Shown here in pieces: positions 1 to 20,134 of a DNA stretch of 20,134 nucleotides. A program made the position numbers and the translations under genes. The first letter of the stretch is position 1, and every line of letters begins with the position of its first letter. The notes below the pieces were generated by a model. That model made no database searches. It was not told where the DNA came from and was given only the letters and a program-made list of their open reading frames with translations. The DNA comes from a virus, in the IMG/VR virus record IMGVR_UViG_3300003859_000002, positions 6,184-26,317 of that record, one strand, 5' to 3'.

Positions 1-630
1 GAGGCGAGAAATCAAATCATCGCTCTTAACAGTCGCCACGTGCGCGCCTTTGCTCAGGCGATCGAGCGGTACAATTCCGCGGGTGAGCGAGTTGAGTATT
101 CGCCTTGCTATCAAGCAGTGGTCGCGGCAGGGATGCAGGCGGGTTCCCCAGTTGGGCAAAGTCTGACCTACAAATACGCTAATGTCCTAAGCATCCGTCA
201 GGACGCGACCTGGAACCCGACAGATGACGCCGAAGAAATGATCCAATCGGGCCTATGCTTCATGGAAAACATCGAGGGTCTCGGTCGGCGCGTCGTTCGC
301 AATATAACGACGCACTTAACGAGCGACAACATCGCATATACGGAAGGCAGCGTGAACGAGGCTGTAAACTACGCTGTTTACACCTTCCGGACGAATATGG
401 AATACGCAGTTGGCAAACGGGGATTTAGTGGAACGGTCAACGCTGCTAAGGGCGTTGCAATCAATACGCTGGGTCTTTTGAAGGACGCAAATATTCTGAT
501 CGCGACTCGTTCTTTAAATATCGAACTCATCGTCGATGTTTTGGAGGTGAGCGTCGAGATGGCGCCAGTGATTCCGATCAATTTCGTCAAATCCACAGTC
601 CACCTTGTCACGATTGCGCAGAGCGCTTAA
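1..630 (+). CDS. Contractile tail sheath protein, C-terminal part (5' partial)
   Basis: The reading frame is open from the first base, so the gene starts upstream and only the last 209 residues are visible; the GTG at 40 is internal. Sheath subunits polymerise around the tail tube and contract at infection. The visible part matches the conserved C-terminal part of phage sheaths: a NVLSIRQD-type strand, an acidic stretch (DDAEEMIQSGL), the block GRRVVRNITTHL followed by a TEGSVNEAVNY helix that recalls the helix used for inter-subunit contacts, and a final beta region ending in VTIAQSA. The identity is strengthened by the tube gene 19 bp downstream, the invariant sheath-tube order of Mu, P2 and T4-type tails. 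Recognition is by motif and context, not by alignment. Confidence 0.85.
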   Translation, partial: EARNQIIALNSRHVRAFAQAIERYNSAGERVEYSPCYQAVVAAGMQAGSPVGQSLTYKYANVLSIRQDATWNPTDDAEEMIQSGLCFMENIEGLGRRVVRNITTHLTSDNIAYTEGSVNEAVNYAVYTFRTNMEYAVGKRGFSGTVNAAKGVAINTLGLLKDANILIATRSLNIELIVDVLEVSVEMAPVIPINFVKSTVHLVTIAQSA

Positions 631-649: not shown

Positions 650-1111
650 ATGTCTCAAAAAGGACGATTGTTGACTGGCGCTCGATGCCGCTTTTCGATC
701 AACGGTATCAAAGTCGGGTATGCGCGAAATGTCGCGATTACCGAAGAAATTGAATACCAGCCTGCTGAAGTTATTGATAATATCGAGGTCGAAGAATATG
801 TTCCAATTGCTTATCGAGTGCGGTTCACGGCCGAACGCTTTAGGATAATCGGGGATCAGGGCGAAGGGTCGCTGAAACAACAAGGTTGGTTCCCTCCAGT
901 TGGCGGGAATACCGAGGAGCATCTCCAAAATATTCTGGTGACAGGCGACGGATTGACCGCGACCATCGAGGACACGAAGACCGGCAAAATCTGGGCGACA
1001 GTAGAACAGGTGAAAATCACCTCGCACAATTGGACTGTTGATCAACGTGGGATCGTCGGCGAGGGCGTGGAGTTCGTCGCGATCCGCGTTCGGGACGAAT
1101 CAGAAGTCTAA
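650..1111 (+). CDS. Tail tube protein
   Basis: A 153-residue protein of the usual length for contractile-tail tube subunits, whose hexameric rings form the inner tube through which DNA passes. It starts at ATG 650 behind a very strong ribosome site (GGGGAGGGGG, 634-643), as expected for a highly expressed structural gene. The N-terminus (GARCRFSINGIKVGYARNVAITEEIEY) has the beta-strand pattern of the tube fold, followed by an acidic strand (IDNIEVEEYVPIAYRVRF) and a strand-rich C-terminal half containing TIEDTKTGKIWATVEQVKI. The gene directly follows the sheath gene and is closed by an intrinsic terminator, which would let sheath and tube be made in excess over the downstream baseplate proteins. 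Confidence 0.85.
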   Translation: MSQKGRLLTGARCRFSINGIKVGYARNVAITEEIEYQPAEVIDNIEVEEYVPIAYRVRFTAERFRIIGDQGEGSLKQQGWFPPVGGNTEEHLQNILVTGDGLTATIEDTKTGKIWATVEQVKITSHNWTVDQRGIVGEGVEFVAIRVRDESEV

Positions 1112-2025: not shown

Positions 2026-4362
2026 ATGGGTAAAGATGTCCGCACAAATGTTGTTATAACGGCTGAGACGAAGGGGCTTGATCGAGCACTTCAACAAATT
2101 CTTGGCTTGAACAAAGAAAGCCTAGATGCCCTCAAAGAGCAAGCTGGAGCTTTCACGGCCGTCGAAAAATCCTTAAAATTAACTGAAATTCGAATCAACG
2201 GTATTTGGAAACAGCAACAAGCTCTCGCCCAACAGATGGATCAGATTTCCGACAAGGGAAGTGATGCGTACCAGGCACTCCAAAAAGAAATGCAGAAAGC
2301 AGATGACCAAGCGAAGTCGCTCAACCGCTCTTTGAATCTCCAAAGAAAGATTTATCAAGATGAAGCGGAAGCAGCAACGCGGCTCGAGCGCGCTCACGCC
2401 CAAATTCGGCAAGGGCAACAACGCGCGCAGGAAAAGGCGCAAGGCGCATTTGGGCAAGGATTCCTTCAGGCTGTTCTGCCGCCAAGTGCGATGGGGATGG
2501 CTCCACTGTTTCTCGAACGCGGGCCCGGGATGCGGCAGCAGGCTTTCGGACAACTCGCGGGCACGGCCTTGCGGCGCGCGGGCGAGTTCGGCTGGGGAAT
2601 GACTGGGGGGATTGCATTCGGAGGCTTGCAAGGAATGCAGGCGGGCCTTTCAGCGATACCTTTAGTCGGGGGGCTTGCAGCGGGCCAACTTGGGGCAGCG
2701 GCGGGCTTCGTGGGGCAATCGTTGGCCTATGAGAGGCAACGTGTTGATTTAACTCCTTTTTTGTCGGATCTGTCGCACACAATTGTGACACGCCAGAGAT
2801 CAGCCGCAGAGGTCGAAAGTACAAAGCGTGAAGAAAACTTTACGCGCCTAAAAGCAGAACGAATACCGACAGCTATCTCAGGAATATGGGATCGGGCGTT
2901 GTCAGAAGCGGCGTTTTTGAATCAGCGAGGCCCTCTCGCGGGGCAAACGGCTATGAGCTTAGCCCAGATGGCGGGAGATCCTGCGAAAAAACAACAACTT
3001 GATGATTTGATCGGTAGTTATGCTTCGAACCAACAGGCGGCAATTTGGGCGCAAATCGAGTCTGCGAACGCTAAAGCGCCCGCTGTGGTTCTTCGCGGCC
3101 GCGCTGAAATGCTCAATGCTGGTGGTGGGTTCGGGAATTTAGGGGGGCCTTCGGCGGCAAACCGGGCGATCCAGATTCCTGCTCCTCAGTTCGCCGCATG
3201 GCAGAAGCAAGTCAGTCCTGCGGACCTTGCGGCACAGGCGGGCCTCCGGTTTCGAGGCCTCGGGCGCCCGGAAGCGCTCCAGGAAACGGCGGCGTTGTTC
3301 CGGGCGGCTGGCGGGCGGTTCGGGCAAGGGATTGGTGGGTTAGCAGCGCAGCAACAGTTCTTGGGCCTCGGCATGGCGGCACAGACGCTCTATGGTGCCG
3401 GTCCTGAGATAACAGGGGCTTTTGGTCTCGCGGGGCGCCGCGGAGGCTTGGTCGGGGCCCAAGGTTTGGGTGCTGACAAGTTGACCCAAGCGATTCGGGA
3501 TGCGAACGCGCTCGGGCTCGAGGATTCCGAGGTTCCGCAGTACCTCCAGGTGATCGCCAGTGGAATCCAGAATTTCCAGCAGACCGGAATTCCCATGAAT
3601 CAGGAATCGTTGGCCTCGATGGCTCAGTTGCTCGGGCAAACCGGCATGCAGACACAGCGCGCTTTAGCTGTTTCTCAACAATTTCAAGGGTATGTTCAAG
3701 GAATTCCGGGTCGCGGGCCCCAGGGCGGCCTAGACCTCGCGCTGATGCAGGCGTTTGGGGGGTACCGAGGCGGCGGCCCGACCGCACTTCAGAAATCCTA
3801 TATCCAAATGGAGCAGATGACAGCGCAATTGCGAGAACAAGGTCTCGGAGGCGTCAAAGCGGGTACTACTACGGGCGATTTTATGAGTAAAATCATAGGG
3901 ATGGGAGGGGGAGGCGCGATAGGGGAATTGTTCCTTCAAGGAATTCTGAGGAAAATGGGTATCCAGGCTTCGACTCTCGAGGTACGCCAGATTGGCGCGG
4001 CGTTGGGAGGCCCCCCGTTGACCCCCGCTGAGCAGGCTCAAGTGGAGACTACAAGGGCCAACCAAGCGCTGGTCAGGAAGGCGCGCCCCGGGGATATCAC
4101 GGCGGAAGCAGCGGCAAGGATTACTGCTGTGGGCCCAAATCTTCGCGCGCAAGCGGAACTTGCAGAAAAGCAAAGGATCATTGGGGCGAAAATGACCGAT
4201 GTTGTGATCTCGCTTGAAACGGCGGCGACCAACACGACAGCGGCGTTCACGCGGGCGAAAGATGTTCTTGGGTTTTTCGCAGATGAGGTGAAAAACGCGA
4301 CTTCCGCAGTCGCGCGCTTGACAGCACCTACTGAGCAGAAAAGAACTCCGGGGGTCAAATAA
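2026..4362 (+). CDS. Tape measure protein
   Basis: A 778-residue protein behind a GGGGG-type ribosome site at 2015-2020. Tape measure proteins set tail length and leave the tube ahead of the DNA. The N-terminal 150 residues are a long charged helix rich in Lys, Glu and Gln (EKSLKLTEIRINGIWKQQQ, then KEMQKADDQAKSLNRSL), typical coiled coil. Residues about 186-232 form a hydrophobic Gly/Ala segment that could insert in a membrane. The rest is Gly, Gln and Ala-rich with repeated GLG/GQG turns, and the C-terminus is helical again. At about 1.5 Å per residue the length suggests a tail near 115 nm, an estimate only. The position after the chaperones and before the hub fits. No peptidase or lytic domain is visible. 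Confidence 0.85.
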   Translation: MGKDVRTNVVITAETKGLDRALQQILGLNKESLDALKEQAGAFTAVEKSLKLTEIRINGIWKQQQALAQQMDQISDKGSDAYQALQKEMQKADDQAKSLNRSLNLQRKIYQDEAEAATRLERAHAQIRQGQQRAQEKAQGAFGQGFLQAVLPPSAMGMAPLFLERGPGMRQQAFGQLAGTALRRAGEFGWGMTGGIAFGGLQGMQAGLSAIPLVGGLAAGQLGAAAGFVGQSLAYERQRVDLTPFLSDLSHTIVTRQRSAAEVESTKREENFTRLKAERIPTAISGIWDRALSEAAFLNQRGPLAGQTAMSLAQMAGDPAKKQQLDDLIGSYASNQQAAIWAQIESANAKAPAVVLRGRAEMLNAGGGFGNLGGPSAANRAIQIPAPQFAAWQKQVSPADLAAQAGLRFRGLGRPEALQETAALFRAAGGRFGQGIGGLAAQQQFLGLGMAAQTLYGAGPEITGAFGLAGRRGGLVGAQGLGADKLTQAIRDANALGLEDSEVPQYLQVIASGIQNFQQTGIPMNQESLASMAQLLGQTGMQTQRALAVSQQFQGYVQGIPGRGPQGGLDLALMQAFGGYRGGGPTALQKSYIQMEQMTAQLREQGLGGVKAGTTTGDFMSKIIGMGGGGAIGELFLQGILRKMGIQASTLEVRQIGAALGGPPLTPAEQAQVETTRANQALVRKARPGDITAEAAARITAVGPNLRAQAELAEKQRIIGAKMTDVVISLETAATNTTAAFTRAKDVLGFFADEVKNATSAVARLTAPTEQKRTPGVK

Positions 4363-5885
4363 TGGCGACTGATCCTCGACCAGGTTTTCAAGGATCTGAA
4401 ACATCTTACGTCGAGGTTATTATTTATCAGCATGGTGGAGATCCTGTTTTGCTTTCCTCGGTCAGTGGTAAATTCAGCATTGATGGTAGACATGAATCCG
4501 AAAATCATTGTGTGGTCGGAGTAAGCACCAATAAGTCTCTCGGGGCGCCTTCAGGTACATTTTCTGTCTCGATTAAACCTGGACGGCAAGCCGAAGAGAT
4601 TTTTCAATGGTTGGCAGATGATGACTGGATAGACATTATTTTTTGGAAACATAAAAAACCGTGGCATGTAATGCGGGGCTTAATCGACGGAATGCAACGT
4701 TCGAGAACAGTCAAGGGAGTAGGTGCAGAGAGTCGCACGTATACAATCACGGGGCGTGATTTCGCTAAAATTTGGGAAAGCACACCTGTTTGGTTTTCTC
4801 CTTACGCAGATAATGATCTGGTAACAGACGCAATATCAAATCAAGTTTTTCAGGCGCTACCCCAGATTGTAGGGGCTCCTCCTCGGGCAGTCAAAGCTTT
4901 TCTGAGAAATTTCTTGGAAGAGTTGGCTGGTTCAGCGGGTGTAAATTGGACTCCTCCTCCAGGTATGATTGGTATTAAAAATGAATCATTCCTAGAGAGC
5001 GTTACATTTGCTCCAGAATCTTCGGGAGAAATTACAAACCCGGTTTTCACCCCCAGTTATTTATATCAAAACATCCCTCCTAGAAAACAATTTAATCCAA
5101 ATTACATGAATCCTTCAGGGACCCTTTGGCAGTTAGCTTACCAGCATAGTGATCCTTTATTTACAGAACTGTACGCGGATCTTTTTCCGGATGGAGATCC
5201 TATATCTTCCAAGATTACTGAAGGATCATCGCTTGATTTGACTCAAACAAAGATGACCGTTGTTATTCGCGACAAGCCGTTTCCAACAATGGAGTTTAGG
5301 TCTCTTTGGGATGACTTGCCTTTGCTTAAAATTCCTCGGCAACAGATTGTTGAGGAAAATGTAGGAAAAGGGGGAAATGAGAGATTCAACGCTTATTTTA
5401 TAGCAAGTTTACTTTTTCAGGAGTCAATCGGACCCCACGCTTTAAGCATACTCGCACCTCTGGTTCACATGCAGGAAATTAAGCGGCACGGGATGAGACG
5501 AATGGATGTCCAGAGCAGCATGGCTCCCGATGATTTAGATTTTTCTAAAATGAGCAAAATGCAACGGCGCATTTGCCGAGATTGGTATTGCTTAAATCCT
5601 TATTTGTTGTCTGGATCAATCAGTTTGGCAATCGGTAGACCGGATATAAAGATCGGCTGTAGGATTGAAATCCCGAATGATGGAAGAGGTTTAAAATTAG
5701 ATGAAACCTATTATGTGGAACAGGTGAGCCATTCTTGGGAATTTGGGCGGGGAATGAAAACGCAACTCGGCGTCACGCGCGGTTGGCAAGGGGACGACGT
5801 GAGTTATGCGGACAAACTTTCAACGGTAATTGATAGTTATAAAACTCCTAATTTAATCCGTGATACTGAAGGATTTCTAGCTTAG
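4362..5885 (+). CDS. Baseplate hub protein (gp27 / Mu gp44-type)
   Basis: A 507-residue protein whose ATG overlaps the last base of the tape measure stop (TAATG). The N-terminal part resembles the first hub barrel (SGKFSIDGRHESENHC, then SGTFSVSIKPGR and DDDWIDIIFWKHKKPW), followed by RTYTITGRDFAKIWE, the usual strand-turn of late-control-type hub proteins. The C-terminal part contains LSGSISLAIGRPDIKIGCRI and a YYVEQVSHSWEFG strand, ending in TQLGVTRGW, a recurrent signature of phage hub C-termini. The hub trimer joins tube to spike. The middle (residues about 190-290) is proline-rich and has no motif I recognise. The gene is visibly more AT-rich than the tape measure gene. Confidence 0.8.
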   Translation: MATDPRPGFQGSETSYVEVIIYQHGGDPVLLSSVSGKFSIDGRHESENHCVVGVSTNKSLGAPSGTFSVSIKPGRQAEEIFQWLADDDWIDIIFWKHKKPWHVMRGLIDGMQRSRTVKGVGAESRTYTITGRDFAKIWESTPVWFSPYADNDLVTDAISNQVFQALPQIVGAPPRAVKAFLRNFLEELAGSAGVNWTPPPGMIGIKNESFLESVTFAPESSGEITNPVFTPSYLYQNIPPRKQFNPNYMNPSGTLWQLAYQHSDPLFTELYADLFPDGDPISSKITEGSSLDLTQTKMTVVIRDKPFPTMEFRSLWDDLPLLKIPRQQIVEENVGKGGNERFNAYFIASLLFQESIGPHALSILAPLVHMQEIKRHGMRRMDVQSSMAPDDLDFSKMSKMQRRICRDWYCLNPYLLSGSISLAIGRPDIKIGCRIEIPNDGRGLKLDETYYVEQVSHSWEFGRGMKTQLGVTRGWQGDDVSYADKLSTVIDSYKTPNLIRDTEGFLA

Positions 5886-5893
5886 AGGTCAAA

Positions 5894-6880
5894 ATGAGGT
5901 ATCAATCTGGTATCCCAGCGGGTTTAGCGGCTGAAGATCGAAACGCGAATGGTCTTCTATTGCGCGGCGCCGTAATCGCTACTTACGTTTCAGATGATCC
6001 CACACATCCAGCGGCAACCTACCCTTCGAGCATGCCTCCTGTTGCGGTCTATTGCGATGTCCTGGTATACGCTTCAATTGCGGGCATGCGCTGGTTTGGA
6101 TTAAAAAACGTGCTCGTGTCACAACCCGGGCCTTCGGGAATTCACCGTGGGAGAATTTGGAAACCTCGAGCGACTACGCTAGATATTGAGCAGGCTCTAG
6201 CCGCGGGTGAAGGATCGAACCCTGCTTTCTTTGACGGCGATCATGTGCTCATTGGATTTCTGGATAATAAATTCGATCAGCCGATCATTTTGGGTAGTCT
6301 GCCTCACCCCTCTGTGGATGTAGGGCGAGCAACGCTTCCGGTTGGCCAACGGATGAAGCTTAAAGTCGCGGACGGGGATCCTGATTTTTTCAGGCACCAC
6401 GGCACACATTGGGGGATCGATTCGAACGGAAATTGGGTGACAGATTCTCGATTTGCGAATGACGGCAAAATTGAGGACGATGGGTTTGAGCAAGAGCCGC
6501 CAGTTGATGGGAAAGGCAAGCAGGAATTCATACTTCCCGCTGACGCGAATTTTGCCGTCACGCTCTGGGATATGAGTGATCCACAATCCCCGGTGGAAAA
6601 AATTCGGTTCCAAGTGGATAAAACCAATTTGCATTTCCAAATTGACGGCGAATCGATTACGATCTCGGGCAAAGATGCAACCGCAACTCTCGTTCTGGGA
6701 AATGGTGCGGTCAAGGCAGCCATCGCGGATCATCTTGAGACCCTGTACGGGCAAATTAAAAATGCTTATGCACTGCATAAGCATCCCAGCGGGACGGGCC
6801 CTACGGGATTTGCGGATACTACTTTTCCAGATTGGGATCCAACAATCAATTCCCAGAAATTGACCTTCCCGGACGGTTAG
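5894..6880 (+). CDS. Baseplate central spike protein (gpV / Mu gp45-type)
   Basis: A 328-residue protein starting at ATG 5894 behind AGAGGT. It forms the cell-puncturing tip below the hub. Residues about 115-138 (DGDHVLIGFLDNKFDQPIIL followed by GSLPHP) are the classic OB-fold segment of spike proteins, where the partner barrel of the hub sits. The later part (FILPADANFAVTLWDMSD, then TNLHFQIDGESITISGKDA) is a run of short beta strands expected for the triple-stranded helix of the needle. His295-Lys-His297, followed by PSGTGPTG, matches the HxH motif that binds an iron ion at the apex of Mu gp45-like spikes. No lysozyme domain is inserted. Confidence 0.85.
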   Translation: MRYQSGIPAGLAAEDRNANGLLLRGAVIATYVSDDPTHPAATYPSSMPPVAVYCDVLVYASIAGMRWFGLKNVLVSQPGPSGIHRGRIWKPRATTLDIEQALAAGEGSNPAFFDGDHVLIGFLDNKFDQPIILGSLPHPSVDVGRATLPVGQRMKLKVADGDPDFFRHHGTHWGIDSNGNWVTDSRFANDGKIEDDGFEQEPPVDGKGKQEFILPADANFAVTLWDMSDPQSPVEKIRFQVDKTNLHFQIDGESITISGKDATATLVLGNGAVKAAIADHLETLYGQIKNAYALHKHPSGTGPTGFADTTFPDWDPTINSQKLTFPDG

Positions 6881-6894
6881 AGGACGATGAACCG

Positions 6895-7368
6895 ATGCAA
6901 AGTGTAGATCTTTCAAACGCCTTAAAGGCACTGCCGCTTTTTTCGGAAGAAGCTCTTGCCGCGAATTCTTGGGCGAGTGCTTTCCATGTGTATTTTGAGG
7001 GTGCTACTGCGGGAGTTGTTGGGCCAGTGGTTCCCGCGGGCCTTACGGCTTGTGAAGCAGCCATGGCAGGTGCGCTCATGGGATTTTCGCAGCCAGGTCA
7101 AGGCGCACTGAAAATTCAGTTGGGTATCGTCGCTTATTGGGGTGCGATCGTCCCGGCAGTCGCTTGGCCGGGGTGTTTAGTGATTACGCCCCCGCCTGGG
7201 TTGACGGGATTAACCGCGGCGCTCGAGGCGGTATTTTTGGCGAACACGATTGGACTCGTCGGCAAAGACCCCGCTTATGACGCGATCGCTGGCGCAATTC
7301 ACGCAGTTTGTATCGCGGGTGGGGTTGCGATCTTTCCGATTCCAATCGGCGTGCAGCCGATTTTGTAG
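6895..7368 (+). CDS. Hydrophobic protein of unknown function between spike and wedge
   Basis: I place the start at ATG 6895, 10 nt after AGAGGA (6879-6884); an open frame reaching back to 6832 would overlap the spike gene. The 157-residue product is unusually rich in Ala, Gly, Val, Pro and Ile. Segments such as GATAGVVGPVVPAGLTACEA, LGIVAYWGAIVPAVAWPG and HAVCIAGGVAIFPIPIGVQP could be membrane-seeking or form a hydrophobic shell. There are very few Lys or Arg residues and no signal peptide. I do not recognise the family. The position between spike and the LysM/gp25-type protein suggests a baseplate role, but a membrane-active protein is not excluded. Confidence 0.75.
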   Translation: MQSVDLSNALKALPLFSEEALAANSWASAFHVYFEGATAGVVGPVVPAGLTACEAAMAGALMGFSQPGQGALKIQLGIVAYWGAIVPAVAWPGCLVITPPPGLTGLTAALEAVFLANTIGLVGKDPAYDAIAGAIHAVCIAGGVAIFPIPIGVQPIL

Positions 7369-7376
7369 AGGTGCGC

Positions 7377-9332
7377 ATGCCTGTTTCTACACTAGCTATG
7401 TTGAAAGAACGTAGCAGACAAAGTTTGAATTTTGACGATAAATTTTATAGGAGAATGTTGTATTTTTTTGAACTGCGAGTTCCTGCGGAAGTTGGATTTA
7501 ATGGTGCAACAGATTTTTTGTTTCCATTAATATTGCCACCGGAAAATTATTCGATGGAGGAACCTTTTTCCGCAGAAGTAACCCCGACCCTTGGCGGGGG
7601 TTTGTACGTGGAGGAAAATGGGATCATCCAGCGGATTATTCGTTTGTCGGGGCACACAGGATTTCAGCCTAGAAATTTAAATTTGCGCTCCTCGAGTGGT
7701 ACTTCGGGAGCGTTCTTGAGTCCAGAAAAACGGTCCTACTCAAGGCAATTGCCTTTCAAAATTAAGGGCGGGATTTCAGGTCAAAGACATTTTCAATATT
7801 TACAGGATTCTATTTTTAGAACTTATGCGGACTTGAAACGCGATCCTGCTTTGGCCGCTGATACTAAATTGATTTTTCATAATCCTAGAGACGAGGAGCA
7901 TTGGGTTGTTATCCCAAAAACATTTAAATTGAACCGGGATGGATCAAATAGATTTCTTTATAAGTACGATATAGAATTGATAGTCGTAGAAAGCGCTGCG
8001 CAAAGAGACGCAGATTTTTCAGATGATAAATCTATATTTGATTCAATACGGGATTCAATACGCGCTATTAAGAATGCAATTGACAGAATAACAGGGATGA
8101 TAAACGATATCACTGCTTTGGTAGGCGAAATTACAAGGTTCATAAAAGATGTGGGTAAAATAATAGATGCTGTTACTGAGATTGTGAACGCAGCTTCTAA
8201 TTTTGTTAATGGAGTAACAACACTTATACAAGCCCCTTATGCTGCTCTTGAAAGTACGCTTGAGATGGTTGAGTCTGCGGTAAATTTGATCACAGAGAGC
8301 GTGGAAATGGGGGGCACTGCCGCAGAAATGCCTGAAAAAGTCCAAAATAAATTTCGGCAAATGGGGGACGCCCTAGAAATACTCGGTATAAACCCTGGGG
8401 ATTGGGAAACGCCGGCTGAGGCAACTGTCCGCAAAATCCGGGAGCAACAGGAGGCTCGCCAGCGCCTCTCGCGGATAGATCAAGCCGCGACCACTGCGCC
8501 CACCTCGTTTGAGGCCGTCCGAAATCTCGGTACACAATACAGCCCCGGGGATGCGGAAGTTGCGGAAAGCGCTCTCGAGGTCTCGACGCCCGCGCGCACG
8601 TATCAGAGCGCTCGCCAGGTCGAGATTACCGAAGGGGATACACTCGTTTCTCTGGCAGCTCGCTACTTGGGGGATGCTCGGCTTTGGCAACGCCTGGCGA
8701 TTTTGAACGGGCTTCGGCCTCCTTTTCTGGATCAACACGCGGCGCTTCCGCTAGTTTCTGGATTGGCGGGGTATTTGACGGGTGCTGCAACTGGCGCAGA
8801 TGAGGTTCCATTTGACGGGGTGCTCGGCCCTGGGCAAAAGATTCTGATACCTAGTGGGCAAAAGAGTGCATTGGATATGCCTCTTCTGCCCGTGCGAGGT
8901 GTCACGAGTGATGAGCCCGTGGAGAACTATTTTCTGGGAACTGATTTTGCTTTGGAGGTTGTTTCTGGAACCAGCGATTCAAGTCGCGCGATTTACGATA
9001 TTCCAATTGACGTGGAGGGCGGGAGTGTTGACGCTAAAATCGTTCAAGGGCAGGACAACCTTATTCAGTTGCTTCGCACTAGAATTTTGACTGAACGCGG
9101 GTCTGATCAATTATATAAACAGTTAGGAATGCGCCGCGTAGTTGCTCTTAATTTCACCCCTGTGGATTTGGAAACTGCGCGCTTCCGGGTACTTGAAGCA
9201 ATTTCCTCTGATCCTCGGGTCGCGAATGTGGAAAGCATCGAAGTTCAACAAAATTTGGATGCTCTAGATATAGACGTTTCAGTTGCAATCCGGGGATTGT
9301 CTGAATCAAGAACCCTAACGGTGAGGCTATAA
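7377..9332 (+). CDS. Baseplate fusion: N-terminal tail domain, helical segment, LysM, gp25-like wedge
   Basis: The start is ATG 7377, five bases after AGAGG; an in-frame stretch back to 7308 lies inside the preceding gene. The 651-residue protein has four parts. Residues 1-210 are beta-rich (FPLILPPENYSMEEPFSAEV, then GGLYVEENGIIQRIIRLSGH), a pattern seen in LysM-containing baseplate proteins. Residues 220-323 are a long helical segment with closely spaced Ile (IRDSIRAIKNAIDRITGMIN). Residues about 415-493 are a LysM module (EITEGDTLVSLAARYLG ... LGPGQKILIPSG). Residues 518-651 resemble gp25 / Mu gp46 (NLIQLLRTRILTERGSDQLY, ISSDPRVANVESIEV). The LysM probably acts as a structural joint between hub, sheath and wedge rather than as an enzyme. 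The N-terminal and helical DNA is AT-rich, the LysM DNA GC-richer. Confidence 0.75.
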   Translation: MPVSTLAMLKERSRQSLNFDDKFYRRMLYFFELRVPAEVGFNGATDFLFPLILPPENYSMEEPFSAEVTPTLGGGLYVEENGIIQRIIRLSGHTGFQPRNLNLRSSSGTSGAFLSPEKRSYSRQLPFKIKGGISGQRHFQYLQDSIFRTYADLKRDPALAADTKLIFHNPRDEEHWVVIPKTFKLNRDGSNRFLYKYDIELIVVESAAQRDADFSDDKSIFDSIRDSIRAIKNAIDRITGMINDITALVGEITRFIKDVGKIIDAVTEIVNAASNFVNGVTTLIQAPYAALESTLEMVESAVNLITESVEMGGTAAEMPEKVQNKFRQMGDALEILGINPGDWETPAEATVRKIREQQEARQRLSRIDQAATTAPTSFEAVRNLGTQYSPGDAEVAESALEVSTPARTYQSARQVEITEGDTLVSLAARYLGDARLWQRLAILNGLRPPFLDQHAALPLVSGLAGYLTGAATGADEVPFDGVLGPGQKILIPSGQKSALDMPLLPVRGVTSDEPVENYFLGTDFALEVVSGTSDSSRAIYDIPIDVEGGSVDAKIVQGQDNLIQLLRTRILTERGSDQLYKQLGMRRVVALNFTPVDLETARFRVLEAISSDPRVANVESIEVQQNLDALDIDVSVAIRGLSESRTLTVRL

Positions 9333-9336
9333 AAAA

Positions 9337-10764
9337 ATGCCTTCTTTTCAAACAAAACGGTACGAACAAATATTAATGCAAATGCTGGCCCGCGTGGTCA
9401 CTCGTTCCCGACTTTCTGATATTTCGGACAGTTCAGTCGTTAAGCACGTCTTAGCTGCGGCTGCTCGCCAGGACGATGAGCAATATTTTCAAATGTCTCT
9501 CTTGCTCGATCTTTTTTCGATCGATACTGCTGCTGGGGAGGATTTGGATAGGCGCGCGGCAGAGATCCAACCTGGAACTATTTCGCGGAGTCAAGGGGCC
9601 AAAGCGGTTGGAAATATTGTTTTCTACCGAACAGGTACAACAGGCACGGTCACTATTTCCGCAGGCACGCGCGTTAAAACCTCGACTGGAATTATTTTCA
9701 TTACAACCGCAGCGGGGTCAATCACGCCTACAAGTCCTGAACAAATTTCGGGGCACGGAATTGGCCGAGATTCTGGACTTGTGCCAGTTATCGCGGAACA
9801 AATTGGGGTTGTAGGAAATGTCGCCTCCGATACGATTGTGAAATTCGAAGCCAAGCCCGCGGGGGTCGAGGGCGTAACAAACCCCGCTCCCTGTGCTTAT
9901 GGCACCGATTTGGAATCCGATGATTCTTTCCGGGAGCGGATTATAAATTATATTGCTGCTCTGCCCAGATCAACGGTGAACGCGATCGAATCCGGGGTCT
10001 TAAATGCTGTGGACTCCACAACTGGCGCGACAATTTTGTACGCGAGGGTGATCGAGGACTCAGTTTATCTCGGAAAAGTGATGCTTTACGTTGACGCCGG
10101 GACAGGATCGGCGGAATCGAGCGCGGCTATTACAGGGGAGATTTTGACGGAAGGGCTTTCCCCAGGCGATGTGGCAGTAGGCGGTGAAACTACGTTATTT
10201 TTTGTGCATAAACCGATCAAATCTTCTATTGTTCCTACGATTACCTCGACACTTCGGGGGGCATTGACTGGCGGAAGCACTTATGATGTGACTTACGATT
10301 TTTGGTATAATCCCGCTAGTGGACAAATTTATTTTCCTAGTCCGGGGTTGACAGCAGGTGAAAAGCTTACTTCTAATTATACGTATTACACTGGAATAAT
10401 AGCGTTGGCACAAAAAATAGTGGATGGCGATGAAACAGATCGAGCTAACTATCCGGGCATTCGTGCCGCAGGAGTGCAGGTAATTTGCCGTGTTCCCCAG
10501 GTTTTGATCCAAGAGATTGAAGTAGTTGTGGCGATTTCTGCGGGCTATGATGATGATACAGTGCGCGTAGAGGTTGAGGAAAAACTTTTATCTTATATTA
10601 ATACTCTAGGGATCTCCACTGATGTTTTGAGGTCAGAACTTATATACCAGATTATGAGCGTTCCCGGGGTATACAATTGTTTTCTTGAAGTTCCTAGTGC
10701 CGATGTAATTATTTTGGATGACCAAGTTGTGCGGACTACATCGGCTAACATAGACGTAAGGTGA
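9337..10764 (+). CDS. Baseplate J-like protein (Mu gp47-type)
   Basis: A 475-residue protein with a start four bases after the previous stop. It shows the baseplate J order: a helical N-terminus (YEQILMQMLARVVTRSRLSD), an AAGEDLDRRAAEI helix, the beta segment FYRTGTTGTVTISAGTRVKT, the GIGRDSGLVPVIAEQIGVVGNVASDTI region typical of the family, and TDLESDDSFRERIINYIAAL, the conserved segment preceding the middle helices. J-like proteins pair with the gp25-like protein in the wedge, and here the two genes are adjacent. Residues about 289-360 form an additional AT-rich beta insertion before the C-terminal IQEIEVVVAISAGYDDDTVR segment. The family is typically nearer 300-400 residues, so the insertion explains the extra length. 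Confidence 0.85.
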   Translation: MPSFQTKRYEQILMQMLARVVTRSRLSDISDSSVVKHVLAAAARQDDEQYFQMSLLLDLFSIDTAAGEDLDRRAAEIQPGTISRSQGAKAVGNIVFYRTGTTGTVTISAGTRVKTSTGIIFITTAAGSITPTSPEQISGHGIGRDSGLVPVIAEQIGVVGNVASDTIVKFEAKPAGVEGVTNPAPCAYGTDLESDDSFRERIINYIAALPRSTVNAIESGVLNAVDSTTGATILYARVIEDSVYLGKVMLYVDAGTGSAESSAAITGEILTEGLSPGDVAVGGETTLFFVHKPIKSSIVPTITSTLRGALTGGSTYDVTYDFWYNPASGQIYFPSPGLTAGEKLTSNYTYYTGIIALAQKIVDGDETDRANYPGIRAAGVQVICRVPQVLIQEIEVVVAISAGYDDDTVRVEVEEKLLSYINTLGISTDVLRSELIYQIMSVPGVYNCFLEVPSADVIILDDQVVRTTSANIDVR

Positions 10765-18639: not shown

Positions 18640-19041
18640 ATGTTTCGTACTATTACGACGGTTTTCTGCTTGGCGGGGGTGGCTTGCGGCGACGGCGCGC
18701 CTGTGTCGGTCATGGTTCCTTTGGTGGGAGATCACTGCGATATCGACAAAGCCCAAGCAACCGTGACGGGGCCCGGCATGTCCCAGGTGGGGCCAGTCAA
18801 TCTTAACATCACGGACTTTGCGGGAATCGTGGGCGAAATTAAGGACGTTCCCCTTGGGAACGGACGCAAAGTTGCGGTCGTTGCGTTCGCTGAGCACGAT
18901 CTCGTGGTATACGAAGGCGCGGGGTTCGTCAACGTGCTCGCAGAGACCACACCAGCTCCGTTGGCCCTCATTCTCCATAGGAACTGGGCGAATTGTCCTG
19001 CGGAGGACGATGAGGACGACGAGGACGACGAGGACGATTAA
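18640..19041 (+). CDS. Secreted, possibly lipidated beta protein with acidic repeat tail
   Basis: ATG 18640 follows the previous stop directly, behind GGAGGAAA. The 133-residue product opens with a hydrophobic signal (TITTVFCLAGVAC). Cys16 sits in a degenerate lipobox (G-V-A-C rather than L-x-x-C) and is followed by Gly-Asp, so lipidation is uncertain. The mature part looks like a small beta sandwich: ATVTGPGMSQVGPVNLNI, VGEIKDVPLGNGRKVAVVAF, YEGAGFVNVLAETTPAPLAL. This pattern resembles secreted Ig-like or carboxypeptidase-regulatory-like domains of bacterial lipoproteins. The last 12 residues are four Glu-Asp-Asp triplets. It could be a cell-surface protein made by the phage (exclusion or conversion), an outer spanin-like partner, or a displaced host gene. 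Confidence 0.7.
   Translation: MFRTITTVFCLAGVACGDGAPVSVMVPLVGDHCDIDKAQATVTGPGMSQVGPVNLNITDFAGIVGEIKDVPLGNGRKVAVVAFAEHDLVVYEGAGFVNVLAETTPAPLALILHRNWANCPAEDDEDDEDDEDD
19003..19038 (+). repeat. Four tandem 9-bp units (GAGGACGAY) encoding Glu-Asp-Asp
   Basis: Four contiguous copies of GAGGACGAT/GAGGACGAC form the very end of the lipoprotein-like gene, just before its stop. The unit is in phase with the reading frame, so copy-number change by slippage would lengthen or shorten the acidic tail without a frameshift. Confidence 0.9.
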
Positions 19042-19070
19042 TTCTAGGTTATTTTTAGAATTATTTATTC
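19040..19070 (+). terminator. Weak AT-rich hairpin after the last gene
   Basis: AATTCTA (19040-19046) can pair with TAGAATT (19056-19062), followed by ATTTATT. The stem overlaps the stop codon and is AT-rich, so this is a possible but weak intrinsic terminator for the late operon. No stronger candidate is visible before the window end. Confidence 0.3.
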
Positions 19071-19443
19071 CTCAGTAAAATCAGAGTTTTGCGAATTCTT
19101 CCTCAAGTAGTTCTTTAGGAAACAAAAAAAGTTAACTGTATATCAATCAGCACCTCAATGAGATGATTGACGGTTATTGAAAAAATTCAGAACATTTGGC
19201 CTATTTTAATGTGCAACTTACAAGACGAAAAACCCTTATGTTTCAGATTTTCTTAATTAATATCATTTTCAGACAATTTCCAAATGATTTTCCGATATAT
19301 TTTTGAATTTCCAGAAAAATAGTCTTCTCCTGGGTACTTAGAAAGAAAAAACTCCCATTCGTTACAGAACTTCATATAGATGTTCTATTTTGATATAGTT
19401 ATAAATTAAAAAAGTCTTTGCGATTCGGGTTTTTGGAATTTAT

Positions 19444-19472
19444 TATAATTTTGTCAAGTATTCTATACTTGA
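19444..19472 (+). promoter_or_regulatory. TATAAT box next to a perfect 8-bp inverted repeat
   Basis: TATAAT at 19444-19449 is followed by TCAAGTAT-TCT-ATACTTGA (19454-19472), a perfect 8-bp inverted repeat with a 3-bp centre, the form of a small dimeric repressor site. No good -35 lies at 16-18 bp; TTGCGA (19418-19423) is 20 bp away. No gene follows within 650 bp, so a promoter role would imply a small RNA or distant target. Confidence 0.25.
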
Positions 19473-19789
19473 TCTAAGAAGTATGCTCGAGCTGAATCAT
19501 TGGACTATCTTAATGCGGAGGAAAGTTTAAAATATAAGATTCGTAATTCTTATGCTATTTCGCTAACTTAGGTCATTTTCGGGAGAAGGTTTGATGTATT
19601 TATAAATAATTTTTTCACTAATAAAATCATATCTTTGCGTGCTTAACTTAAAGGACTACTTCATAAAACTATTACTTCTTATTAAACAGAGACTTAACCC
19701 CCCTTCACTTTTTTCTTGACAAGGTTTTTTGTTCGTGGCAATGGGTGGAGCCTTGCGACACCCCAAATAGGTTCCAAGGATCGACACCT

Positions 19790-19828
19790 GGATTTTAAGA
19801 TTAATTAATTTAATCTATCTTTAAAACC
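19790..19828. other. Imperfect AT-rich inverted repeat
   Basis: GGATTTTAAGATTAA on the left and TTAATCTATCTTTAAAACC on the right form an interrupted stem around TTAATTAATT. It could be a bidirectional terminator or a DNA-bending/protein site, but composition alone can produce such pairs in this AT-rich stretch. Confidence 0.3.
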
Positions 19829-19893
19829 CCACTAATTAAATCTTCTAGATGTGCAAATCTCCTGGGATGTTAAGGTTAAATTTCAATCCATTC

Positions 19894-19960
19894 TTTCTGA
19901 TCTTAATTACTCTTTCTGATCACTTTTTTCTGATCTTAACTACTTTTTTCTGATCTTAAC
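19894..19960 (+). repeat. Short direct repeats of TTTCTGATCTTAAC
   Basis: Copies start at 19894 (TTTCTGATCTTAAT), 19913 (partial, TTTCTGATCA), 19927 and 19947 (both full), and a further full copy at 20017 opens the second 70-bp unit. The 19927 and 19947 copies are 20 bp apart. The sites lie immediately upstream of, and run into, the 70-bp array, which appears to have grown from one of them. The arrangement is iteron-like. Confidence 0.8.
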
Positions 19961-20134
19961 TATTGATAAGGCAGGTATAAAAAGAAAGTTCCACTCCTAA
20001 GGCTAGATCTGTGTTATTTCTGATCTTAACTATTGATAAGGCAGGTATAAAAAGAAAGTTCCACTCCTAAGTCTAGATCTGTGTTATTTCTGATAAGGCA
20101 GGTATAAAAAGAAAGTTCCACTCCTAAGTCTAGA
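19947..20134 (+). repeat. 70-bp tandem repeat array running off the window edge
   Basis: Unit 1 is 19947-20016 and unit 2 is 20017-20086, each 70 bp and nearly identical (GGCTAGATCT versus GTCTAGATCT near the end). Unit 3 starts at 20087 and lacks the 13 bp CTTAACTATTGAT between two TGAT copies, then continues to the window end. The core is GATAAGGCAGGTATAAAAAG, then AAAGTTCCACTCCTAAG. No spacers separate the units, so it is not a CRISPR array. The near-identity indicates recent expansion or continuing homogenisation. Confidence 0.9.

Follow-up and report, generated by a model that had tools for sequence, protein, structure and literature searches.

A single gene at 7377..9332 (+ strand) of the window, the 20,134-nucleotide stretch of metagenomic virus DNA analysed here, encodes a tail-tube initiator, a helical domain, a LysM domain and a gp25-like sheath initiator in one chain of 651 aa plus stop. 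Sequence comparison confirmed that three baseplate parts, which make up two or three proteins in well-studied phages, are one chain in this virus. The product very probably unites a baseplate centrepiece with a LysM glue domain and a sheath initiator (BCP-BW4-BW1 by the naming scheme of PMC10811340), and both the tube and the sheath would start from this chain. Direct observations underlie this assignment: the identity of the domains, a single reading frame, conservation, one branch between fused and split forms, and the lack of any further gp25-like match in the long relatives.

The open reading frame begins with an ATG at 7377, immediately preceded by the Shine-Dalgarno-like GAGGT, and contains no internal stop before the stop codon at 9330-9332. 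An additional LysM-gp25 protein could in principle arise from an internal translation start, in which case some or all wedges would carry an unfused sheath initiator. Relatives do have separate genes of such extent, and 51 of 57 homologues contain some in-frame ATG, GTG or TTG in this region, although chance alone gives many. However, no in-frame ATG, GTG or TTG occurs across residues 340-418 of the window protein, no internal start is conserved among the 57 homologues, and a strong Shine-Dalgarno match was found in only five of the 57, none of them with an ATG. Internal initiation is thus very improbable.

The fused protein was divided into domains, all encoded on the + strand. Residues 1-207 (7377..7997) form a tail-tube-initiator domain, the inner, tube-side part of the baseplate centrepiece, as indicated by Phage_tail_tube_init, PHROG 1011 and the fold of phi812 ORF59. 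Residues 1-210 passed the cut-off of Pfam Phage_tail_tube_init (PF23980; E 6.6e-11, 42.8 bits, cut-off 27) and matched PHROG 1011 at 4.4e-18, and PF23980 was matched by 56/57 homologues. The original prediction had described this region as a hub-side tail domain; a tail domain it is, but more precisely a tail-tube initiator. Residues 218-398 (8028..8570) constitute a helical domain in the position that a helical bundle occupies in Mu gp43 and Milano gp25; in an AlphaFold model, helices span 220-398, with LysM next in the chain, and PHROG 184 ('baseplate hub') aligned over residues 219-449 (2.1e-8). A linker at residues 399-410 (8571..8606), modelled with low confidence, leads to a BW4-type LysM domain at residues 411-493 (8607..8855). 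Residues 415-493 passed the Pfam LysM cut-off (1.8e-5, 25.0 bits, cut-off 20.9). The insertion at ~457-480 of this domain is clade-specific, its columns being gaps in ~75% of the homologues.

Residues 513-651 (8913..9329) were assigned to the gp25/BW1-like sheath initiators on the basis of PHROG 975, the T4 gp25 fold and conservation. The predicted gp25-like match was present for residues 518-651, which matched the PHROG 975 baseplate protein at 2.7e-13, whereas the Pfam Sheath_initiator score (PF10934; 0.0031, 18.0 bits) was below its cut-off of 32.9 and GPW_gp25 (PF04965) gave no match in the window protein. These two Pfam cut-offs leave out divergent members, since SPO1 gp14.1 passes only PF10934 and the protein of Aeromonas phage ST4 passes neither. 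Taken whole, the window protein matched PHROG 975, which contains LysM followed by a gp25-like domain in one chain, at 5.1e-23, and the family was matched by 57/57 homologues. A stand-alone LysM-gp25 protein has ~200-250 residues, whereas the domain pair in the window sits in a 651-residue frame. A Glu-Pro-Arg-like motif is known in the last third of gp25 and TssE. The window protein has D612-P613-R614 at this site; the acidic residue is Asp, D612 is invariant and R614 is conserved in at least 90% of the 57 sequences, whereas the Pro is not conserved. Altogether 18 positions are invariant among these sequences, and conservation spans the tube, LysM and gp25 domains. Searched separately, then, residues 1-210, 415-493 and 518-651 each returned the kind of family that had been anticipated.

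Searches against the PDB gave the same picture. The window protein alone matched the phi812 baseplate chains ORF61 and ORF59, and a profile of 57 sequences matched ORF61 (LysM and gp25) at 9.5e-38 over profile positions 398-601 and ORF59 (tube initiator) at 1.3e-16 over positions 48-256. Profile comparisons between alignments that both contained the window protein were set aside as evidence. The AlphaFold model, built from the 57-sequence alignment, had a mean pLDDT of 77 and a pTM of 0.42; because of the latter value, the single domains of the model are usable and their arrangement is not predicted. Residues 1-208 of the model aligned to phi812 ORF59 with Z 13.3, and the C-terminal part aligned to T4 gp25 (5iv5_BD) with Z 13.5 and 2.0 Å over 117 residues and to 2ia7 with Z 13.4 and 1.9 Å over 99 residues. 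Residues 410-643 aligned to phi812 ORF61 (Z 11.3, rmsd 8.4), and a part within residues 5-494 aligned to the Milano centrepiece 8fqc_U1 (Z 8.9, rmsd 20.4), where domain placement differs. Structural matches to copper-storage proteins, pectin methylesterase inhibitor and Bop1 were attributed to generic arrangements of helices and disregarded.

The fusion is not confined to the window. With the adjacent J-like and sheath genes as entry points, we collected 73 ORFs from IMG/VR loci, that of the window included, which span both ends of the protein with the same domain order. They form 60 groups at 90% identity, range from 587 to 786 residues in length and are ~19-53% identical to the window protein. 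Two extra scans were seeded by peptide patterns confined to the N-terminal domain; among the 52 loci obtained in this way, 49 had one ORF over the whole profile, three were cut by contig ends and none was split. Split genes would have shown up in this survey, as the script did report two neighbouring ORFs for L120, a relative of ST4. Because loci were reached via neighbours or fused relatives, these counts give no frequency among all phages. The Pfam, PHROG and fold matches and the 73 ORFs together bear out the original prediction, in which a tail domain at the N-terminus, a long helix, LysM and a gp25-like domain follow each other in a single chain. The window comes from one 26.3-kb record of a metagenomic virus, and a long ORF in such a record might reflect an assembly artefact or a stop codon lost by chance in a single phage. 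However, the 73 fused homologues, in 60 groups and down to 19% identity, the long internal branches of their trees and the lack of any split N-seeded locus make the chance of this negligible, and an assembly artefact was rejected.

A plain gp25 gene elsewhere in the same genome would have spoken against the original prediction. None was found in 17 long related records, the record of the window itself being only 26.3 kb. Among 18 related records of 99-171 kb, 17 had one PHROG 975 place each (in two pieces in one record), always within a frame of 596-677 aa that also held a PHROG 1011 match; the remaining record, G007, had no PHROG 975 match, and its sheath lies near a contig end. In the 17 long relatives, no second gp25-like gene was detected outside the fused frame with PF04965 and PF10934 at E values up to 1. 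Neither of two scans found relatives in contigs of bacterial genomes, and a plasmid search gave a single weak match, to the C-terminal part only.

Trees of the N-terminal and C-terminal halves each separated 57 fused from nine split sequences by one branch (99/89 in the C-terminal tree and 100/97 in the N-terminal tree). The same three large fused clades, with long internal branches, were recovered in both. Since a single branch separates fused and split forms in both trees, one fusion event suffices or, depending on the root, one fission.

Proteins of this kind also seem to be present in public collections. The BFVD predicted structure of A0A6J5L2B6 (854 aa) from an uncultured Caudovirales phage aligned to the window model over 858 columns (E 2.7e-25), and that of A0A6J5L7B1 (560 aa, 'LysM domain'), likewise from an uncultured Caudovirales phage, over 666 columns (E 1.2e-18). 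Judging from these modelled structures, both are probably of the same fused kind, and they stand in UniProt without annotation of function or fusion. PHROG 4033 (630 aa, function not annotated) matched 43/57 homologues; in the matches inspected, the C-terminal third of the family aligned to the LysM-gp25 part. It may represent a further fused protein of this type, as yet unnamed, in known phages.

The fused gene lies in a tail gene cluster, of which the sheath, tube, tape measure, hub, spike and J-like genes are on the + strand. The window opens with the C-terminal part of a tail sheath gene (1..630; PHROG 279, 3.8e-12), which begins upstream of the window and is present as a full ORF in locus L002. 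It is followed by a probable tail tube protein gene (650..1111), which matched PHROG 985 (virion structural protein) at 2.1e-7; relatives of this ORF in distant loci also matched the sheath-adjacent ST4 gene annotated 'major tail protein'. Between the tube and tape measure genes, a chaperone-like ORF at 1239-1715 matched PHROG 25000 (tail assembly chaperone, 1.1e-4). The frame of a second chaperone-like ORF, at 1741-2016, is open 5' of 1741 and runs into the 3' end of the first ORF in a +1 (or -2) relation, and a stem-loop (z -2.8) was found at ~1699-1729. By analogy with SPO1 gp10.2-11.1, which is so annotated, a programmed frameshift joining the two ORFs is possible. The tape measure protein (778 aa, 2026..4362) gave no informative family match and was assigned by its position between the tube and chaperone ORFs and the hub, in the window and in relatives. 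The baseplate hub gene (4362..5885) matched PHROG 1015 (tail protein with lysin activity) at 7.3e-26, and a probable central spike gene (5894..6880) matched PHROG 14236 and 1922 weakly (0.002-0.006), its position being conserved in relatives. Between the spike and the fused gene, where content varies among relatives, the window has a small Ala/Gly-rich hydrophobic ORF (6832-7368, ~165-178 aa) with no Pfam or PHROG match. The next gene downstream of the fused gene (9337..10764) encodes the baseplate J-like wedge protein (BW2; PHROG 6 baseplate wedge subunit, 1.8e-48).

In ten distant relatives, the strict order of sheath, tube, chaperone-like ORFs, tape measure, hub, spike and fused gene was retained, with extra ORFs in some. 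The tape measure ORFs of these relatives (L174-L183, on contigs of 103-171 kb), identified by position and taken from stop to stop, were 698-810 aa long, so tail length seems nearly constant in the group; their hub ORFs varied from 557 to 1182 aa. Elsewhere in the window, an ORF at 18640-19041 ends in a run of Glu-Asp-Asp repeats (EDDEDDEDDEDD) and adjoins a GC-poor stretch (0.32 GC at 19001-20000).

By analogy with Mu and Milano, six copies of the fused protein would be expected per tail. Their N-terminal domains would form a ring for polymerisation of the tail tube, while the helical and LysM domains would lie in the wedge and link adjacent wedges. The C-terminal domain would take the arms of the first sheath ring, whereupon sheath assembly would begin. 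Tube and sheath could thus begin in register from a single chain. The Mu tube initiator is a hexamer, and the six wedges of that phage carry one gp25-like subunit apiece (PMC11915804); a fusion in a 1:1 ratio therefore matches the symmetry and leaves the stoichiometry unchanged. For the same reason, the earlier suggestion that the fusion would fix stoichiometry has little force. That it would simplify the baseplate is an inference, and the fusion also adds a problem, since in other tails contraction parts the inner from the outer components.

The phi812 structures illustrate this problem. ORF59 and ORF60 are listed in five PDB entries only (9euf, 9eug, 9euh, 9tic, and 9tid), whereas ORF61 is also present in 9eui, titled complete post-contraction baseplate. 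The simplest reading is that the tube and sheath initiators of phi812 part on contraction, although absence from a model can also mean disorder. As the phi812 equivalents appear to part, the covalent link in the fused protein would cross a sliding interface and would have to stretch, tear or be cut. On contraction, the tube would move and the sheath initiator would stay; the helical domain and linkers would then unravel, or the chain would be cut or torn out. Whether the tube initiator and the sheath initiator must part for a contractile tail to fire is therefore a question that this protein makes testable.

One possibility, which we hold tentatively, is that the protein is made as one polypeptide and then cleaved within a linker (~360-410 or 494-512) by a protease, either while the tail assembles or when it fires. 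The resulting parts would be those of SPO1-like phages, the fusion only securing equal synthesis and co-assembly; proteolysis after assembly, if it occurs, would yield functionally separate parts. The apparent separation of ORF59 and ORF61 in phi812 is consistent with such a cut, as is the fact that, in the alignment of homologues, the less conserved stretches include residues 361-400 and the poorly modelled residues 399-410. In contrast, no conserved linker motif was found among the homologues, and none of ten neighbouring gene products was recognised as a protease by Pfam, most of them being without a family match.

A chain that stays intact during firing is somewhat doubtful. In that case, the moving tube would drag the N-terminal domain down, with the C-terminal domain left behind in the sheath, and the ~200 residues between them would unravel as a molecular rip-cord or brake. 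Tape measure length corresponds to 1.5 Å per residue. With the shortening of 0.46 taken from Mu, in which the rise changes from 35 to 19 Å, tube travel was estimated at ~540 Å (781 aa x 1.5 Å x 0.46). Fully stretched, residues 208-411 would reach ~714 Å (3.5 Å per residue), more than the estimated travel, so an intact tether is geometrically possible. Across 16 loci, tether length did not correlate significantly with the length of the tape measure (Spearman 0.34, p 0.20), a correlation that would have hinted at selection for reach.

Whatever becomes of the chain on contraction, a fused centrepiece and sheath initiator can be set against the arrangements of known tails. In Milano, Photorhabdus virulence cassettes and the antifeeding prophage, BW4 (LysM) is the C-terminal end of the centrepiece protein, whereas in SPO1-like phages LysM is joined instead to a gp25-like BW1, for example in A511 gp102 (PMC10811340). 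Mu gp43 likewise has a tube-like domain, a helix-rich domain and LysM in one chain (PMC11915804). Mu gp43 ('DNA circularisation protein') and Milano gp25 (BCP) thus join the tube, helical and LysM parts as in the window, but in both phages the gp25-like BW1 is made as a protein of its own (Mu gp46 and Milano gp28). LysM and gp25 are in one chain in SPO1 gp14.1, A511 gp102 and phi812 ORF61, as in the C-terminal half of the window protein. The original statement that LysM and gp25 are separate in Mu, T4 and PBSX-type tails was right for Mu (gp43 versus gp46; PMC11915804), and the known joining of the two in SPO1, A511 and phi812 had been overlooked.

The Herelleviridae have three genes where the window has one: phi812 ORF59, ORF60 and ORF61, SPO1 gp13.1, gp13.2 and gp14.1, and A511 gp100, gp101 and gp102. 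This trio shares with the window the tube-initiator and LysM-gp25 families and their order, after the hub region and before the baseplate J-like gene. The middle gene lies at 3444-3965 of L119 (phi812 ORF60), 3156-3686 of L118 (A511 gp101) and 7492-8184 of L005 (SPO1 gp13.2); no counterpart of it is recognisable in the fused protein, and its equation with the helical domain was not supported, at an hhalign probability of 0.7% obtained from only four sequences. Two-gene forms occur in Aeromonas phage ST4 (gp71 and gp70), Bordetella PHB04 (gp5 and gp4), Yersinia fHe-Yen8-01 (gp20 and gp21), Pseudomonas Dolphis (gp25 and gp26) and Morganella Mecenats66 (ORF81 and ORF82). In these five, the first gene encodes the tube initiator and the helical part and the second encodes LysM-gp25; these gene pairs are adjacent and collinear with the window protein, and in both trees the fused/split branch sets them apart from the fused forms. 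When an annotated phage collection was searched by tblastn with four fused proteins, no record had one place covering 80% of the query, within the limited reach of a search that may leave out phage records very near the window; the records inspected all showed one of the two arrangements just described, with two or three genes.

Known tails join these parts pairwise, and the addition of a tube initiator and a helical domain to the LysM-gp25 pair appears, at the level of sequence, to be new. A function can now be proposed for a recurrent unnamed protein of environmental phages, whose related records span 99-171 kb. Two fusions known only apart, that of tube initiator and LysM in Mu-like and eCIS tails and that of LysM and gp25 in SPO1-like tails, are united here; as both are combined in one chain, LysM can be seen as the piece that both share, in the middle of a single ordered module.
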